Assembly (NCBI GenBank): GCA_030017955.1
Contig: JASEGR010000029.1
Span: forward strand, 1-33,671
Direction of reading: 5' to 3'
DNA length: 33,671 nucleotides
From: Candidatus Eisenbacteria bacterium
GTDB taxonomy: Bacteria; Eisenbacteria; RBG-16-71-46; JASEGR01
The notes under the pieces are model-generated. The model made no database searches. It saw only the letters and a list, made by a program, of their open reading frames with translations, and was not told the origin of the DNA. A program made the position numbers and the translations under genes. Shown piece after piece: positions 1,713-12,908 of this stretch; position 1 is the stretch's first letter, and each line of letters begins with the position of its first letter.

Positions 1713-1741
1713 TTGACCCGAATCACATTCCGTGCTAAATT
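1713..1741 (+). promoter_or_regulatory. Sigma-70-type promoter candidate
   Basis: TTGACC (1713-1718) is followed after 17 bp by TAAATT (1736-1741), leading into TAAATTG. The element lies between the terminator at 1634 and the small secreted protein at 1825, giving a leader of about 75 nt. The TAnnTTG form also fits an FCB-type -10 element. Confidence 0.5.
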
Positions 1742-1824: not shown

Positions 1825-2193
1825 ATGAAGAATCATCAGCATTTGGCAAGAACTGGATGGGTGATGACTGCTATCCTGCTCGGTTCCCTGCTTCTCCTGA
1901 GCAGCTCTGCTTTCCCGTGGGTGAGACCGGTTGACGGCAACTATCGCGGGGACAGAGACCAAACGGTCGGCCAGGGCGACATTTGGTACGGCGATCCGGA
2001 CATGCCGCAAGGGAAAGGCCCTGGTGCGGAAAACCCGTTTGGTGCACCGGTTGTTGCTGACTCAAAATCCAGCTCAGGGACCGCGTCTTTCGTTAAGAAA
2101 GGTGACGGGGGTGCAAGGAAGCAGTTGGGTTCTCCTTGGCTCGAGATCAAGCTTGCCTCCAGGTTCTGGGTGCTTTATCTCGTTCAGCGCTGA
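1825..2193 (+). CDS. Small exported protein of unknown function, 122 aa
   Basis: The ATG has GAGGAAGG about 8 bp upstream. The N-terminus is a long signal peptide or membrane anchor: basic residues, then a hydrophobic stretch (ILLGSLLLLSSSAF, about residues 17-30). The rest is short, hydrophilic and of low complexity. It is rich in Gly, Asp and Pro up to about residue 80 (for example QGDIWYGDPDMPQGKGPG), and a hydrophobic patch ends in WVLYLVQR. No domain is recognised. It has its own promoter candidate and lies 61 bp before the sigma-54 regulator, so the two could be cotranscribed. The clear RBS and signal sequence make it probably real. Confidence 0.6.
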   Translation: MKNHQHLARTGWVMTAILLGSLLLLSSSAFPWVRPVDGNYRGDRDQTVGQGDIWYGDPDMPQGKGPGAENPFGAPVVADSKSSSGTASFVKKGDGGARKQLGSPWLEIKLASRFWVLYLVQR

Positions 2194-2254: not shown

Positions 2255-4717
2255 ATGGCACACTCAGAGCAAGAACAGATAACCAAGATCGAAAAAGAGA
2301 TCAGGCGGCTGAGGAAGAACAAGGATTTCCTCGAAAAACTTGAATCTCTCGCCGCACTTTACCTCACAACGGATTCCTACCTTCCCGCTCTGGACCTCCT
2401 CACGGCAATTCTGGCAAAGGAGTCATCCCTCTCGCTAACCAGAGAAGACATCCTGGCATTGAGGCTCAAGAAGGCCGAGTGCCACTTGAGGAGGGGCGAG
2501 CTTGCCAAGGCGAGTGCAGAGGAACAACTTGTCCATTCTCTTCTGGCCCTGGATGACTGCAATGCGATGAAAGGCAGGGCAGCTCTACTCTCATCTAGAA
2601 TACAGTGGGAGTCGGGAAGCTACGAGACTGCATTCAGCGAAGCCGGGAAGGCGCTTTCTCTGTTGAAAGACGGCGGGACCCTTCCTGAACTGGCCCAATG
2701 CCACATGAACCTCGGCAGGAGTCTATTCAGACTTGGGGACTACTCCCAGGCAAGGGAACACTACGAAAGCGCGCTTGCCTTCTACAGGCTGGCCGGGGAT
2801 GAGGTGGGAGTCGGGATGGCGCACAACAATTGCGGTCTTATCCTGAAGAACATCTGTGACTGGACGGGAGCAAGACGCCACCTTGAGCTTGCCGTTGAGA
2901 TTGCCAGGAAGCTCGGCAGCTATGGCGACGAAGCCGTTAGAAACCTGAACCTCGGTCTTCTCGAATTCCGGATGGGTGTCTGGGACAAGGCGGAGTCCCA
3001 CGTAAGAGTATCGCTTGACTCTTTCATCAAGATTGGGGACAGAGTCGGCGAGACGAATGCAAGACTTGCTCTCGGGAATTTTCTCAGAGCAAGGAGAATG
3101 TGGGACGAGTCAAGGGAAATCCTGACGCAGGCCTATGAGGTCGCGGAAAAATATGGGTTGAGAAGGCAGCTTGCGCTTGCGGATGAATTCATGGGAGAGC
3201 TTCTGTACGACACCGGAGAAATCGAAGACGCTTTGCATCACTACGCAGCAGCGCTTGAGATTGCGGAATCCATCGCACCTTCAGGCGACATGGTGCCGGA
3301 GATTGAAAGAAGAAGAGGCGAAGCTCTGATCTCCATGGGTGATTACTCCGGTTCGAGGACCGCCTTTGGCAATGCACTTAGACTTGCGGCGGAAAGCGGA
3401 GACCGGATTGAGGAAATATGCTCCAGAAGAGGTCTGGCAGAGCTTCTCATGAATGAGGGGATGACTGCTGAAAGCACGAGAGAGCTTCTCGCTGCAATCA
3501 AGACCTTGGAGGAGATTGGCGAGAAATTCGAACTTGCGAAGACTTACTTCTTGCTTGCGAGATTGAGCCCCCGTCCTTCTTCAGAAGAGGAGACTAGAAA
3601 AAGGAAGGGATATTTCCTCAGGGCAAGTCTTCTTTTTGATGAGCTGGGGCTGAGCCACCAGGCAGGGACTTCGAATAGAGAAATCGAACAGATTGAGTCT
3701 GCGGGCCCTGTTCTCCACAAGGGGAAAATGGGCGCCGGGGCCGGGAGCGTTCCCAAGACTCCCTCATCTGGCTGGGGGATTGTTACCAGGGACAAGAGAA
3801 CTCTCGACGCCCTGAGCTGCGTCGAAGCCATAAGAGATAGTTCTCTGGGCGTCCTTATTCAGGGAGAGACCGGCACCGGTAAGAATCTCTTTGCCTACAT
3901 CTTTGCAGAGCATGAGAAGGTGAAGGGCAGGCCATTCGTTGAAGTCAATTGCGCAACGCTTCCTGCTGAACTCATGGAGAGCGAGCTTTTCGGCTATGCG
4001 AAGGGGGCATTTAGCGGGGCTTCCGCGGAGAAGAAGGGAATAATCGAGGAGGCGAACGGGGGCACGATTTTCTTTAACGAAGTGGCGGAGCTTTCCGACA
4101 GGATGCAGGCAAAACTCCTCCAGGTTCTTGATGACGGGACCTACAGACGGCTTGGAGAAACGGGGCTAAAGAAGGTCTCCGTGCGAGTGATCTCGGCTAC
4201 GAACAAAGATATTTTGGGCGAGGTTGAATCGGGCCGCTTCAGGCGCGACCTGTATCACAGACTCAGCCAGCTCTCTCTGGAACTCCCGCCTTTGAGAGAG
4301 CGAAAGGGTGATGTTCCATATCTTGTTCAGCATTTTCTCGCCGGTTTTGAAAAACGTTATGGAAAGAAGATCAGGATCTCGGATGAGGCGGTAGGCCTGC
4401 TTGACGCTTACTCATGGCCCGGCAATGTGAGGGAGCTCAGAAATGAGCTCGAAGTCGCGTACCTCACCGCCGAGGATAGCTCTGTTCTCGGACCCGACAG
4501 TTTTTCCCACAGGATCGTCGCAGGGAATCCGGTGGCTGAGTTTCAGCCGGGACAGATCCAAGCCGGGCTTGAGAAGGTGAAGCGGACCTATGTTGAGGCG
4601 ACTCTCAAGAGATATCGTTGGAATAAAGCAAGGGCGGCAAAGGCCCTTGGCGTGAGTCCGTGGGGATTGAGGAAGATGATGGCGAGGTACGGACTGCACA
4701 GTACGAGAGAGAATTAG
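2255..4717 (+). CDS. TPR-sigma-54-activator with Fis-type HTH, 820 aa
   Basis: This is an enhancer-binding protein that would activate sigma-54 RNA polymerase. Residues about 10-470 form TPR-type helical repeats (LGRSLFRLGDYSQAREHYESAL, then several more), in place of the usual receiver or PAS input domain. A Gly/Pro linker leads to the AAA+ domain (about 510-735): Walker A GETGTGKN (537-544), sigma-54 contact loop GAFSGA (584-589, usually GAFTGA), Walker B region IFFNEV (N608, E609; the family has Asp-Glu), sensor I ISATN, arginine-finger region FRRDLYHRL, and WPGNVREL. A Fis-like HTH covers about 788-815. The start at 2255 is preferred over an in-frame TTG at 2234; neither has a strong RBS. 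TPR input suggests sensing of a protein or ligand rather than phosphorylation. A near-consensus sigma-54 promoter lies 138 bp downstream and is the obvious target. The Walker B Asn may weaken ATP hydrolysis. Confidence 0.9.
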   Translation: MAHSEQEQITKIEKEIRRLRKNKDFLEKLESLAALYLTTDSYLPALDLLTAILAKESSLSLTREDILALRLKKAECHLRRGELAKASAEEQLVHSLLALDDCNAMKGRAALLSSRIQWESGSYETAFSEAGKALSLLKDGGTLPELAQCHMNLGRSLFRLGDYSQAREHYESALAFYRLAGDEVGVGMAHNNCGLILKNICDWTGARRHLELAVEIARKLGSYGDEAVRNLNLGLLEFRMGVWDKAESHVRVSLDSFIKIGDRVGETNARLALGNFLRARRMWDESREILTQAYEVAEKYGLRRQLALADEFMGELLYDTGEIEDALHHYAAALEIAESIAPSGDMVPEIERRRGEALISMGDYSGSRTAFGNALRLAAESGDRIEEICSRRGLAELLMNEGMTAESTRELLAAIKTLEEIGEKFELAKTYFLLARLSPRPSSEEETRKRKGYFLRASLLFDELGLSHQAGTSNREIEQIESAGPVLHKGKMGAGAGSVPKTPSSGWGIVTRDKRTLDALSCVEAIRDSSLGVLIQGETGTGKNLFAYIFAEHEKVKGRPFVEVNCATLPAELMESELFGYAKGAFSGASAEKKGIIEEANGGTIFFNEVAELSDRMQAKLLQVLDDGTYRRLGETGLKKVSVRVISATNKDILGEVESGRFRRDLYHRLSQLSLELPPLRERKGDVPYLVQHFLAGFEKRYGKKIRISDEAVGLLDAYSWPGNVRELRNELEVAYLTAEDSSVLGPDSFSHRIVAGNPVAEFQPGQIQAGLEKVKRTYVEATLKRYRWNKARAAKALGVSPWGLRKMMARYGLHSTREN

Positions 4718-4723
4718 TTGTTT

Positions 4724-4746
4724 CTCCGGCAACTAAGTTGCTGGAG
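4724..4746. promoter_or_regulatory. Dyad, candidate activator site (UAS)
   Basis: CTCCGGCAAC (4724-4733) and GTTGCTGGAG (4737-4746) form a 10-bp dyad with one mismatch and a TAA centre. Its centre lies about 146 bp upstream of the predicted sigma-54 start at 4881, a typical distance for an enhancer-binding-protein site. The mismatch would be a G-U pair in RNA, so it could equally be a transcript hairpin after the regulator's stop. Confidence 0.35.
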
Positions 4747-4777
4747 GGCGGCGAGATAGTCTGGTAGAATCGATCGA

Positions 4778-4808
4778 AGGGCGGCTCAGGAAAGCTGCCC
4801 TATTTCAT
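4778..4808 (+). terminator. Probable terminator of the regulator gene
   Basis: AGGGCGGCT (4778-4786) pairs with AGCTGCCCT (4793-4801, one G-U pair) over a 6-nt loop, followed by the moderately T-rich ATTTCATT. It lies 60 bp after the regulator's stop and would separate it from the sigma-54 unit. The weak U tract makes this tentative. Confidence 0.4.
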
Positions 4809-4854
4809 TGAAAGACAAAATGTTAGCTTTGTGATGGAGATTCCGTCTCATAAG

Positions 4855-4870
4855 TGGCACGGCCTATGCT
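4855..4870 (+). promoter_or_regulatory. Sigma-54 promoter (-24/-12)
   Basis: TGGCACG at 4855-4861, four bases, then ATGCT at 4866-4870. The consensus is TGGCACG-N4-TTGCW, so 11 of 12 defined bases match. The essential GG (4856-4857) and GC (4868-4869) are exactly 10 bp apart. Predicted start: about 4881. A perfect TATAAT (4872-4877) overlaps just downstream but has no acceptable -35 at 16-18 bp. The motif follows directly after a sigma-54 activator gene, which strongly supports function. Confidence 0.7.
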
Positions 4871-4880
4871 CTATAATACT

Positions 4881-5003
4881 GGCGAGAGCTAGCTAAATGG
4901 GGGGACCAGATAGCCCGCTCATGCCAGGGTGTAAGCCTCACTTGAACGAGGGTTCCCATCGGTAGCGACCGATGAAAATGAGGCACGCCCTGGTTTTATT
5001 TTT
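4881..5003 (+). ncRNA. Putative sigma-54-controlled structured small RNA
   Basis: From the predicted start at 4881 the transcript would run about 123 nt to an intrinsic terminator. The 3' half folds as a long hairpin: CCAGGGTGT-AA-GCCTCA (4924-4940) pairs with TGAGGCACGCCCTGG (4979-4993), 15 bp with one wobble and an AA bulge. Inside is a second hairpin, ATCGGT (4958-4963) with ACCGAT (4968-4973), tetraloop AGCG, flanked by an internal loop containing CTTGAACGAGGGTTCCC and GAAAA. A 10-nt T-rich tail follows. The 5' part holds a G-rich stretch (4899-4904). I do not recognise an Rfam family. Alternatives are a tiny mRNA (an ATG at 4897 opens a 22-codon frame with a weak RBS, stopping at 4965) or a regulatory leader of uvrA, though the terminator would have to be read through. 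No expression is proven. Confidence 0.5.
4924..5003 (+). terminator. Intrinsic terminator of the small RNA
   Basis: The base of the hairpin (CCAGGGTG with CGCCCTGG) is GC-rich and followed directly by TTTTATTTTT (4994-5003). It is the strongest terminator-like signal in the window and would end transcription from the sigma-54 promoter. Confidence 0.7.
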
Positions 5004-5013
5004 CCCCCGAAAT

Positions 5014-5062
5014 AATTAGTGACAGTCACCTATTTCCTGGAAATAGGTGACTGTCACTAATT
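5014..5062. repeat. Perfect 49-bp palindrome
   Basis: Two 24-bp arms (5014-5037 and 5039-5062) are exact inverted copies around a single T. The arm contains AGTGACAGTCACCTATTT. It starts 10 bp after the small-RNA terminator and ends 29 bp before the chosen uvrA start. No transposase is adjacent. A perfect palindrome with almost no loop looks like a dispersed REP/MITE-type element of the kind mobilised by REP-associated (Y1) transposases, or a very strong RNA hairpin upstream of uvrA. The arms are read directly; the mobile origin is inferred. Confidence 0.7.
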
Positions 5063-5091: not shown

Positions 5092-7848
5092 ATGGAAGAA
5101 GACAAATACATAGTTGTCACAGGTGCAAGGGAACACAACCTGAAAGGCATAACAGTGAGGGTTCCCGTGGGACAGCTCACCGTCATCACCGGGGTAAGCG
5201 GCTCGGGGAAATCATCCCTCGCGCTGGATACGCTCTACGCGGAGGGACAGAGAAGGTATGTGGAATGTGTCTCGCCTTATGCGAAACAGTTCCTTGAGAG
5301 AATGCCGAGACCCAATGTTCTTTCCGTAGAGGGAATCCGCCCCGCCGTTTCCGTTGAGCAGAAGAACTCGACACGAAGCGCGCGGTCAACCGTGGGCACG
5401 GCAACCGAAACCTATGATTTCATGAGGCTTTTGTTCGCCAGAATAGGCAAGATTCACTGCTACCAGTGTGGAGATCCTGTAGAGAAAAATACCGTCCAGT
5501 CAACTGCCCGGCAGATACTCTCTTTTGAGCACGAAAAAGTCCTGATCCTCTTCGCGCGGGCAATCACTCGAAAAGAAAATCTCAGCGAAACGGTCAAAGA
5601 GCTTGCTGCCTCGGGCTACGCCAGAGCATTCGGAAAGGGAGAGGTCCTGGATATCGATTCATCGCAGGGTTCTTTCGAGGATGAAAGCGAGTTGCTCGTG
5701 GTTCAGGACAGGATCACAGTCTCGCAGGGTTCACTGAAGAGGATCACTGATTCACTTGAGTCGGCCTTCAGGGAGGGAGGCGGAAAAGTTGTGATCGCGA
5801 CCGGCTCAGGAAAAAGCCTCACCTTCCATAATCGACTCATCTGCAAGAGATGTGGAATCGAGCTTAAGGAACCTGAGCCTCTTCTCTTCTCCTTCAACAG
5901 TCCTTTTGGGGCTTGCCCGTCGTGCAGGGGATTCGGGGACATTCTGCAGTTTGATATTGACCTGATAATCCCGGACAAGACCAAGTCGATAATGGCAGGA
6001 GCAATCGCGCCGTGGCGCACTACATGGTGGGCATGGTACGGCAGAAAGCTTTCGGAGCTTTCCGAGAAAGGGAAACTCAGACTGAAGGTGCCTTTCAAGG
6101 ATCTGAGTGAAAAAGAAAAAGAGCTGATCCTCCACGGTGACGGGAAATTCGACGGCGTGATTCCCTTCCTTGAGGAGCTCAGGAAGGAAAGGCACAAGGC
6201 AAGCTCGAGATTCCACGCAAAGAGGTACCTGACACCGGTCAGGTGCGGAGACTGCGGCGGGTCAAGATTGAGGAAAGAGGCGCTGTTTGTGAAGGTGGGC
6301 GGTTTCTCGATCGATCAAGTCGCGGATATGCCGGTCAAGGATTCTGTCTCTTTTTTCGGATCCCTCAAGCTCTCGCCGTACGAAGGCGAGGTGGCGCGGA
6401 GAGTTTTGGACGAGATCAAGTCACGGCTCAAGTTTCTCAAAGATGTGGGTGTCGGCTACCTGGCTCTGTCCAGAGCGGCGCGCACTCTCTCGGGGGGTGA
6501 AGCCCAGAGGATCGCTCTTGCAAATGCGCTTGGCTCGTCTCTTACCGACACCCTGTATGTGCTGGATGAGCCGACGATCGGCTTGCACCCCAGGGACGGC
6601 AAGAAACTCGTCGATGTGCTCGATAACCTCAAGAAGCTTGGCAATCCGGTTGTTGTTATCGAGCACGACAGGGACCTGATTTCAAGCGCAGACTGGCTTA
6701 TAGACCTTGGTCCCGGGGCAGGGCAGGACGGCGGAAATCTGATTTACGAAGGGAGACCGGACGGGCTGATGAGCTCTCCGGGCTCTCTAACGGGACAGTA
6801 CCTTGCAGGGAGTACGTTCCTTCCTGCAAAGAAGGTGAAAAGGCGGAAGCCCTCCGGCCTTATCACTATCGAAGAGGCAACTCTCCACAACATGAAGGGA
6901 ATCGACGTCGACATTCCGCTGGGCGCCCTTGTCTCCGTCACGGGTGTGTCCGGCTCGGGAAAGAGCACTCTCGTGGAGGATATCCTTTACCGGTCAGTCT
7001 CAGAATTCCCTTCCGTGCCTCCGGGGAAGATAATCGGCGCAAGTGCGATCAGGGGGCTTGAGACGCTGGAGAAGATTCTGCTCATTGACCAGTCTCCAAT
7101 AGGAAGGAGTCCGCGGTCCAACCCGGTTTCCTACGTGAAGGGGTTCAGTCCCATAAGAAAGCTATTCTCCGAGACCGTCGAAGCAAGAAAGAGAGGATAC
7201 TCGGAGGGAAAGTTCTCATTCAATACTGAGGGAGGAAGATGTCCGGAGTGCAAGGGCGAAGGATTCCTGAAGGTCGAAATGTACTTCATGGCGGACATTT
7301 ACCTCCCATGCGAGGAATGCGGGAGCACGCGCTACAAGCCCGAGGTTCTCGCAATCGCATACAAAGGGAAAAACATCAATCAGGTGCTCAACATGACGGT
7401 GGATGAGGCATTGAACTTCTTCTCGGTCCCCGCAATCCTGGAGAAGCTCTGGCTCCTGAAGCGCGTAGGCCTTGGCTACCTGAAGCTCGGTCAACCCGCG
7501 ACGACTCTTTCCGGAGGTGAGGCGCAAAGGGTAAAGATTGCGAGGGAACTGGGTGAAGGGAAGGGCGTCAAATGCCTGTTCATACTTGACGAACCGACAG
7601 TCGGGCTCCACATGGCAGACGTCGCTGTTCTGCTGAAAGTGCTCAACGATCTCGTTGATAAGGGAAACACGGTCCTGGTTGTTGAGCACAACATCGATGT
7701 CATTTGGGCCAGCGACTACGTGATAGATCTTGGCCCGGATGGGGGAGAGGAAGGCGGAAGGATTGTGGCCCAGGGGACTCCTGAAGAGATCATGTCGAAA
7801 GCCGAGTCGCACACGGGGAAAGCTCTCAGGAGCTGGGTTTCGTATTGA
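5092..7848 (+). CDS. Excinuclease ABC subunit A (UvrA), 918 aa
   Basis: UvrA is the damage-recognition ATPase of bacterial nucleotide-excision repair; as a dimer it loads UvrB on lesions. Two ABC modules are present: N-terminal Walker A GVSGSGKSSL (about 34-43) with signature LSGGEAQRIALA and Walker B VLDEPTIGLH, and C-terminal Walker A GVSGSGKSTLV (about 617-627) with LSGGEAQRVKIA and ILDEPTVGLH. Zinc-binding CxxC pairs are visible: CKRC...CPSC in the first half and CPEC...CEEC in the second. The segment between the first Walker A and the first zinc module is long enough for the UvrB-binding domain, so this is the UvrA1 type, near the usual 940 aa. Starts at 5047 and 5071 are in frame, but 5047 lies inside the palindrome and the protein family begins near the 5092 ATG; no strong RBS marks any of them. 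It converges on and overlaps the next gene by 23 bp. Confidence 0.95.
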   Translation: MEEDKYIVVTGAREHNLKGITVRVPVGQLTVITGVSGSGKSSLALDTLYAEGQRRYVECVSPYAKQFLERMPRPNVLSVEGIRPAVSVEQKNSTRSARSTVGTATETYDFMRLLFARIGKIHCYQCGDPVEKNTVQSTARQILSFEHEKVLILFARAITRKENLSETVKELAASGYARAFGKGEVLDIDSSQGSFEDESELLVVQDRITVSQGSLKRITDSLESAFREGGGKVVIATGSGKSLTFHNRLICKRCGIELKEPEPLLFSFNSPFGACPSCRGFGDILQFDIDLIIPDKTKSIMAGAIAPWRTTWWAWYGRKLSELSEKGKLRLKVPFKDLSEKEKELILHGDGKFDGVIPFLEELRKERHKASSRFHAKRYLTPVRCGDCGGSRLRKEALFVKVGGFSIDQVADMPVKDSVSFFGSLKLSPYEGEVARRVLDEIKSRLKFLKDVGVGYLALSRAARTLSGGEAQRIALANALGSSLTDTLYVLDEPTIGLHPRDGKKLVDVLDNLKKLGNPVVVIEHDRDLISSADWLIDLGPGAGQDGGNLIYEGRPDGLMSSPGSLTGQYLAGSTFLPAKKVKRRKPSGLITIEEATLHNMKGIDVDIPLGALVSVTGVSGSGKSTLVEDILYRSVSEFPSVPPGKIIGASAIRGLETLEKILLIDQSPIGRSPRSNPVSYVKGFSPIRKLFSETVEARKRGYSEGKFSFNTEGGRCPECKGEGFLKVEMYFMADIYLPCEECGSTRYKPEVLAIAYKGKNINQVLNMTVDEALNFFSVPAILEKLWLLKRVGLGYLKLGQPATTLSGGEAQRVKIARELGEGKGVKCLFILDEPTVGLHMADVAVLLKVLNDLVDKGNTVLVVEHNIDVIWASDYVIDLGPDGGEEGGRIVAQGTPEEIMSKAESHTGKALRSWVSY

Positions 7849-11957: not shown

Positions 11958-12908
11958 ATGGAGACTCGTCAGTTGGATCATATGGACACAGAAAACACCA
12001 GAAAAGAATTATTGAGTCTTTTGGAGCGACAGGCACGATTACTGGAGGAGTTTCAACGAATCCACGGCGGCCATCTGCTCCTGCGGCGCTGTCGGAGGCT
12101 GGTGCGGTACAATTTCAGATACCTGCAATACGTCATTTCTACATTGAGATCAACTCCTACGCCCGTCCACGGAAAAACGTTTTGGGGAGACGGTTTCGAT
12201 GTTTTTCTGCCAGAGAATGTGGAACCATATTTGTTGGGTTTATTGGGTTCCGAGGAGGAAATTCGGCTTACGAAATATTTGATCAATAATACGGATGCCT
12301 CTGAGATATTTTTCGACGTAGGCGCAAACTGTGGGTACTACAGTCTGCTGGTGAGAAAATTGATCACTGATGGAGAAGTGCATTCTTTCGAGCCGGCGCC
12401 AGCCGTGTTCGAGATGTTAGAAAGAAACTGTCTTGCGAAAGGTATCGTTTTGAACCAATTGGCTCTATTTAGTTCGAAAGGAGAACTTGATTTTTTCGAA
12501 GCACTTAGATGGAGTGGGTGGAGTACCTTCGATATATCTACCATGAGCAAGGTGGCCAATCCAACTTCTTTCAGGAAAAGTAAGGTTCGTACGTGTACTT
12601 TGGACAACTATTGCCAGACACACTGCAAGCCGACTTTCCTTAAGATTGACGTCGAGGGAGCGGAGCAACATGTAATTGAGGGAGGGCTGGAAACCCTCAG
12701 GACATGTAATCCGGTTATTGCAATGGAAGTGTGGCGTAGCCCCTTGAATAACACCTCGCACCTGAAGGCTATGGAGATTCTGTATGAGCTGGGATACAAG
12801 TCGTATTCAATTGACCTTGATGGGTGCTTGGAAATTAGACACAAGATTGACCCCGAACACGACATTTCGGAAGGATTGAGAACGGATAATTTCATTTTCA
12901 AAAAATGA
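11958..12908 (+). CDS. FkbM-family methyltransferase, 316 aa
   Basis: This is a SAM-dependent methyltransferase of the FkbM family, often O-methylating sugars in polysaccharide clusters. Motif I FFDVGANCGYYSLL lies near residue 115-130, an acidic E follows in HSFEPAP, and the family hallmark FLKIDVEGAE is at about 226-235. The N-terminal ~70 residues are a helical, basic extension (LERQARLLEEF, RRCRRLVRYN). An alternative ATG at 11982 has GGA just upstream, so the first eight residues are uncertain. Its codons look noticeably more A/T-rich than the UXS and flippase genes, suggesting separate acquisition. The acceptor sugar is unknown. Confidence 0.8.
   Translation: METRQLDHMDTENTRKELLSLLERQARLLEEFQRIHGGHLLLRRCRRLVRYNFRYLQYVISTLRSTPTPVHGKTFWGDGFDVFLPENVEPYLLGLLGSEEEIRLTKYLINNTDASEIFFDVGANCGYYSLLVRKLITDGEVHSFEPAPAVFEMLERNCLAKGIVLNQLALFSSKGELDFFEALRWSGWSTFDISTMSKVANPTSFRKSKVRTCTLDNYCQTHCKPTFLKIDVEGAEQHVIEGGLETLRTCNPVIAMEVWRSPLNNTSHLKAMEILYELGYKSYSIDLDGCLEIRHKIDPEHDISEGLRTDNFIFKK

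Follow-up and report, generated by a model that had tools for sequence, protein, structure and literature searches.

What does a sigma-54-dependent activator control when a near-consensus sigma-54 promoter lies directly behind its own gene? The question is raised by a 33,671-nt stretch of DNA from Candidatus Eisenbacteria (the window; contig 29 of a 3.1-Mb assembly that is 97% complete), in which the gene of a regulator with tetratricopeptide repeats (TPR) is followed by such a promoter and by sequence expected to give a strongly folded RNA. Based on comparison with 46 relatives of the same class, and with activator orthologs gathered across that class, the locus is probably a module composed, in this order, of a small secreted protein bearing a G-x-P-D motif, a TPR-type sigma-54 activator, a sigma-54 promoter, and a structured non-coding RNA; as such, it has the appearance of a signal-to-RNA control circuit that is conserved in Candidatus Eisenbacteria but unstudied. 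A first-pass annotation, made from the letters of the window, had described a self-contained switch of regulator, site, promoter, RNA, and terminator, a picture that the comparative data support, although it left out the small secreted protein.

On sequence criteria, the regulator (2255-4717, plus strand) is an NtrC-type sigma-54 activator, i.e., a bacterial enhancer-binding protein, as it combines a TPR superhelix (amino acids 1-482), an AAA+ domain with a GAFTGA-type loop, here GAFSGA (amino acids 510-740), and a Fis-type helix-turn-helix (HTH; amino acids 772-812) and is accompanied in the genome by RpoN (PF04552, E 2.2e-63). The domains that the first-pass annotation had read in a TPR/AAA+ regulator ending at 4717 were found by Pfam on 2255-4717, with matches to the sigma-54 interaction domain (PF00158, E 5.7e-57), the Fis-type HTH (PF02954, E 2.4e-7), the TPRs, and the AAA lid. 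In its AlphaFold model (predicted local distance difference test score of 87.8), residues 1-482 form the same TPR superhelix, and the AAA+ domain has a fold that Foldseek matches to those of ZraR, NtrC1, FleQ, and LuxO.

Both regulatory sites that had been proposed behind this gene, a near-consensus -24/-12 promoter and a dyad upstream of it as a candidate activator site, are present and recur in relatives. The promoter TGGCACGGCCTATGCT (4855-4870, plus strand) reads TGGCACG-GCCT-ATGCT, with GG (4856-4857) and GC (4868-4869) 10 nt apart, and is assigned to sigma-54 on the strength of this GG-N10-GC spacing, its near-consensus flanks, and its conserved position. The exact string TGGCACGNNNNNTGCW occurs once in the window and six times across the 3.1-Mb genome, and at one mismatch two sites are found in the window versus 1.2 expected. 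A TATAAT at 4872-4877 overlaps the start region; a sigma-70 scan returned no promoter there, and the TATAAT is not kept in relatives. The dyad CTCCGGCAACT-a-AGTTGCTGGAG (4724-4746), which ends 108 bp upstream of the -24 element, has 11-bp arms with a single mismatch; of 40 shuffled versions of the 330-bp upstream region, 2 scored equally well. Taken alone, the promoter and dyad of the window are thus only moderately above chance; the comparative data make both convincing.

Among the 26 ortholog loci with enough downstream sequence, a strong -24/-12 site, defined as one scoring at least 14/16, lies 3' of the activator stop codon in 22, always on the activator strand, and a weaker one in three more (12/16 in L025; 13/16 in L041 and L051). 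Sites lie 138-389 bp from the stop codon; L068, with an open reading frame (ORF) shortened in the assembly, is the exception. Since other loci hold 10 sites of at least 14/16 per 255 kb of strand, or approximately 0.01 per 300 bp, about 0.3 such sites would be expected by chance over all 26 loci, versus the 22 observed. In a sister clade of TPR activators (13 loci plus L052, scanned on both strands), 14/16 sites were found in L109 only, leaving 13 of 14 without. The promoter-RNA arrangement belongs to this ortholog group, as strong sites there exceed background and the sister clade mostly lacks them, and the link between regulator and promoter, first drawn from proximity and motif, is thereby supported, with a site retained in 25 of 26 loci.

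Dyads, likewise, lie at a near-constant distance upstream of the -24 element, ending at -108 to -128 (families of relatives are labelled f3, f6, f8, and f11 herein). The dyad of the window is the sole full match within its own genome, and comparably placed dyads occur in f8 relatives (TGTYACC...GGTRACA, ending near -117, with a second set near -191) and f3 relatives (TGTGACAT..ATGTCNCA, near -115 to -128). Dyads of the form GTGNGAC...GTCCCAC, similar to the f3 promoter dyads, are also present in some f3 operon leaders, which suggests autoregulation.

Further sigma-54 promoters were encountered in the same genome. One of consensus type, on the minus strand at C59:12305-12290 (L059, L075; region 12290-12326), precedes an unknown ORF of 253 amino acids and has GGCAAC/GTTGC half-sites, like those of the window dyad, directly upstream; judged by these motifs, it is a possible second target of the activator and would fit a small regulon, of which it is a single case. 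Three others, also of consensus type (C12:12997, C16:12401, and C52:20858; L055, L056, and L058) lie shortly 3' of three other sigma-54 activators, and their transcripts appear to enter ORFs.

The RNA predicted at 4881-5003 (plus strand) starts 163 bp after the activator stop codon, in synteny with structured RNAs in relatives, and comprises a 5' hairpin (approximately 4881-4925), a long branched hairpin (approximately 4926-4993), and a U-rich end. Its minimum free energy is -55 kcal/mol, versus -36.8 +/- 3.8 kcal/mol in shuffles (z -4.81; 0 of 200 shuffles as good). The structured RNA of about 123 nt described in the first-pass annotation therefore has a strong fold; its terminator, however, is not a separate small hairpin, given that the long hairpin itself precedes TTTTATTTTT. 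The accompanying statement that the RNA matches no familiar family also holds, as an Rfam scan gave no match at the gathering threshold anywhere in the window and a scan with Rfam 15 at E 0.5 over eight relatives gave only tRNAs and noise; no tRNA was found in the window. A DNA search with the window RNA returned no further copy in its own genome and no relevant match in relatives, and a protein-pattern scan of the contigs of that genome returned no match. No ORF is common to the RNAs of the window and its relatives. As a regulatory RNA, the window hairpin is predicted from position, fold energy, and analogy, not from covariation.

Covariation is observed in one family, f8, whose RNA is approximately 400 nt long, folds with z values of -5.5 and -6.5, and has a highly conserved 3' domain and a GGCAGCC...GGCTGCC-TTTTC terminator. 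Compensatory changes affect 8 of 15 pairs of the f8 stem, in which 94.3% of cells are paired versus 86.7% in shuffles and 43-55% when the stem is slid. Searches with the f8 covariance model gave a single strong copy per genome in 14 f8 genomes, in every case adjoining the activator, and none with confidence elsewhere; on the window, f3, and f6, the model gave no match. Two matches to an f8 motif outside Eisenbacteria (L063, Phycisphaerae; L065, Pyrinomonadaceae) were rejected, for they lack flanking similarity and several chance 18-mer matches are expected in 257 Gb. In f3, an RNA core of approximately 125 nt, which GGGCCGCGGA...TCCGCGRCCC closes, shows strong conservation, with one-sided changes only; in f6 (L025, L026), a closing stem is retained despite differences in its sequence, and the RNAs have short motifs in common; in f11 (L048), a long hairpin ending in a U-tract (z -6.6) gives the architecture most like that of the window. 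Comparison of homologous loci thus separates the two elements, with the -24/-12 motif kept almost throughout and the RNA sequence specific to each family, a covarying stem being shown in one family, f8.

The module opens with a gene that the first-pass annotation did not notice. It encodes a small secreted protein (1825-2193, plus strand; 122 amino acids) with a signal peptide, a GDPDMP motif, and an amphipathic C-terminus, and in each of the 27 loci for which this sequence was available, a gene of this kind is the immediate upstream neighbour of the activator. The family is characterized by an N-terminal hydrophobic segment, an invariant G-x-P-D, an amphipathic C-terminus, and a recurring C-terminal LRF; no Pfam family matches it. 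Its profile scores E 1.8e-15 on the window and gives one strong match per genome, at the activator locus, along with weak matches directly upstream of other TPR activators. The tight pairing of small ORF and activator makes a role as ligand or modulator plausible. A sigma-70-like promoter of the operon (TTGACC-17 nt-TAAATT; 1713-1741, plus strand) is suggested by motif as read from the sequence, and a comparable TTGACC-N17-TAGCCT is found in the f8 leader of L040. In the sister clade of TPR sigma-54 activators (L096-L109, L052, and L112), several members are likewise preceded immediately by a small secreted ORF of weak similarity but are without the sigma-54 RNA unit.

Read as a circuit, the module would most likely operate as follows. 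The TPR domain of the activator would sense a signal; its HTH would bind the dyad approximately 110 bp upstream of the -24 element, as the conserved position of the dyad suggests; and its AAA+ ring would open, or remodel, the sigma-54 polymerase at 4855-4870, a step to which domain, motif, position, and the presence of RpoN all point. The product would be a short RNA with its own terminator, which would serve as the effector and, by analogy with Pxr, CrcZ, and Qrr, as a regulator in trans.

Several observations weigh against this reading. One of the 26 loci, L038, has no -24/-12 site 3' of the activator, and most of the RNA region is missing from L110. The activators of the window and of f6 carry GAFSGA in place of the GAFTGA found in the remaining orthologs, albeit as a conservative variant. 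Between families, the RNAs show no recognisable sequence homology; they are family-specific, and the window genome is the sole member of its family compared. Fold energies of the f6 RNAs do not stand out from those of shuffled sequences (z -0.9 and -1.6). Finally, Hfq was not detected in the genome of the window.

The surroundings of the RNA contain a terminator-like hairpin (4778-4801, plus strand), which by its match to the consensus is the probable end of the operon mRNA, and, between the RNA and a uvrA-like gene, a near-perfect palindrome TAGTGACAGTCACCTATTTCC/GGAAATAGGTGACTGTCACTA (5017-5059). A 21-nt half of the palindrome occurs 42 times in the genome (reversed control, 0), as befits a repeated element resembling repetitive extragenic palindromic sequences. 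Upstream of the module, 638-1606 encodes a predicted secreted protein of approximately 270-320 amino acids with no Pfam match.

That a promoter-like motif and a GC-rich hairpin merely happen to lie beside an unrelated activator would be conceivable for the window alone, where about one one-mismatch motif is expected; the 22 of 26 ortholog loci, set against the 0.3 expected, refute chance for the group and leave it highly improbable here. The folded sequence could instead be a 5' leader or attenuator of the uvrA-like gene (ATG near 5092), which lies on the same strand approximately 90 bp past the RNA end, but the long hairpin is followed by a U-tract, the repeated palindrome intervenes, the next gene varies by family (tRNAs in f8, another ORF in f6) such that no downstream gene is constant, and in some relatives the RNA is far from any same-strand gene; this account is accordingly improbable. 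Scarcely credible, too, is the notion that the transcript serves as the message for a short peptide, MGGPDSPLMPGCKPHLNEGSHR, and not as a functional RNA: a 22-codon ORF at 4897-4965, starting with an ATG in the 5' portion of the transcript, does contain G-x-P-D-x-P, the motif of the upstream small protein, by chance or otherwise, yet no relative has a comparable ORF and the f8 RNA covaries. Were the RNA to act by titrating a protein such as CsrA instead of by base pairing, the presence of CsrA in a genome in which Hfq was not found would be in keeping; GGA motifs, however, are not enriched in the RNAs (155 observed versus 151 expected, with one in the window RNA), and titration of this sort is unlikely. 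Anti-Shine-Dalgarno-like CCTCC, by comparison, is enriched (22 versus 7.7 expected), mostly in f8 (loop GCACCTCCA), so that pairing with ribosome-binding sites stays possible in that family. Pairing between the RNAs and the small ORF's translation start did not exceed that in shuffles.

A different proposal would add to the activator-driven RNA reading rather than replace it, namely that the neighbouring TPR domain senses the small secreted protein or a C-terminal portion of it, with the RNA as the output of a peptide-signalling circuit. It finds encouragement in the pairing of small ORF and activator in 27 of 27 loci, in the weak homologs that directly precede other TPR activators, in the invariant G-x-P-D and recurring C-terminal LRF, and in the RRNPPA systems, which combine a TPR receptor with an adjacently encoded secreted propeptide that usually has its active part at the C-terminus (PMC9765709). 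Nevertheless, at 97-124 amino acids the proteins are long for pheromone precursors and have low overall identity, no importer or protease was identified, the TPR-with-AAA+ architecture is unlike that of RRNPPA, and the small ORF might just as well represent an inhibitor held in the membrane or a target gene; the proposal is hence a possible but doubtful one. Of the 14 f8 loci, 11 (L040 and L068 are examples) have in the operon leader, at approximately -94 to -127 relative to the small ORF, a sequence CCCCGTATCC complementary to the RNA 5' end GGATACGGGG, and in L068 and L041 the two sequences have changed in a matching way. Locus by locus, the statistics are weak, and such pairing is absent from the window and the other families. 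A fuller version, in which the secreted G-x-P-D protein is sensed by the TPR-AAA+ activator, which in turn drives, from a dedicated sigma-54 promoter, a fast-evolving structured RNA whose f8 5' end GGAUACGGGG may feed back via the leader CCCCGUAUCC, is rather unlikely; if true, a peptide-signalling circuit of this kind would be one not yet known from this phylum.

The preferred reading, an activator that would drive its own structured RNA, is of use in two respects. A locus of three parts (secreted protein, sensor, and RNA) is now defined together with its promoter, candidate binding site, and RNA boundaries and is thus open to testing. Moreover, the locus is a useful case of regulatory RNA evolution, for its RNA sequence turns over between families against a constant background of promoter, position, and partner protein.

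Among known systems, the nearest are those in which an RNA gene adjoins a sigma-54 activator behind a sigma-54 promoter, an arrangement found here as it is for pxr, crcZ, and qrr1. In Myxobacteria, a small RNA (sRNA) of 108 nt lies 3' of the gene of the sigma-54 response regulator Nla19, with a sigma-54 promoter in the 262-nt intergenic region, and the Eisenbacteria module resembles nla19-pxr in the predicted sRNA directly 3' of the activator, the intergenic sigma-54 promoter, the stem-loops, and the variable outer neighbours (PMC5568312). Unlike the response regulator Nla19, however, the activator described here has a TPR sensor, no receiver, and a paired secreted protein. CbrB belongs to the two-component response regulators; CrcZ, which at a few hundred nt is similar in size to the f8 RNA, titrates Hfq/Crc, in contrast to a genome in which Hfq was not found. 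In Pseudomonas, CbrB is the sigma-54 activator of regulatory RNAs whose promoters have subsites upstream (PMC6296734). The AAA+ domain of LuxO is among the nearest solved structures to the window activator. LuxO carries a receiver domain, and Qrr1 is an Hfq-dependent RNA in a divergent gene layout, whereas the Eisenbacteria layout is same-strand. In Vibrio, LuxO is a sigma-54 activator that binds at two upstream sites and drives the quorum regulatory RNA Qrr1 (PMC10162802). RRNPPA systems share a TPR regulator adjoining a small secreted protein gene (PMC9765709), but they are known from Firmicutes, carry their HTH or effector domain at the N-terminus, and are without sigma-54 AAA+ domains, whereas here the TPR is N-terminal and the AAA+ and HTH are C-terminal. 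A search of the available literature for TPR sigma-54 activators with an sRNA found no report. In summary, the layout matches nla19-pxr, cbrB-crcZ, and luxO-qrr1, the new elements being a sensor of the TPR type, a secreted protein paired with it, and RNAs without an Rfam match, and the activator-plus-own-RNA layout of Vibrio, Pseudomonas, and Myxobacteria is thereby seen also in an uncultured lineage with a different kind of sensor.

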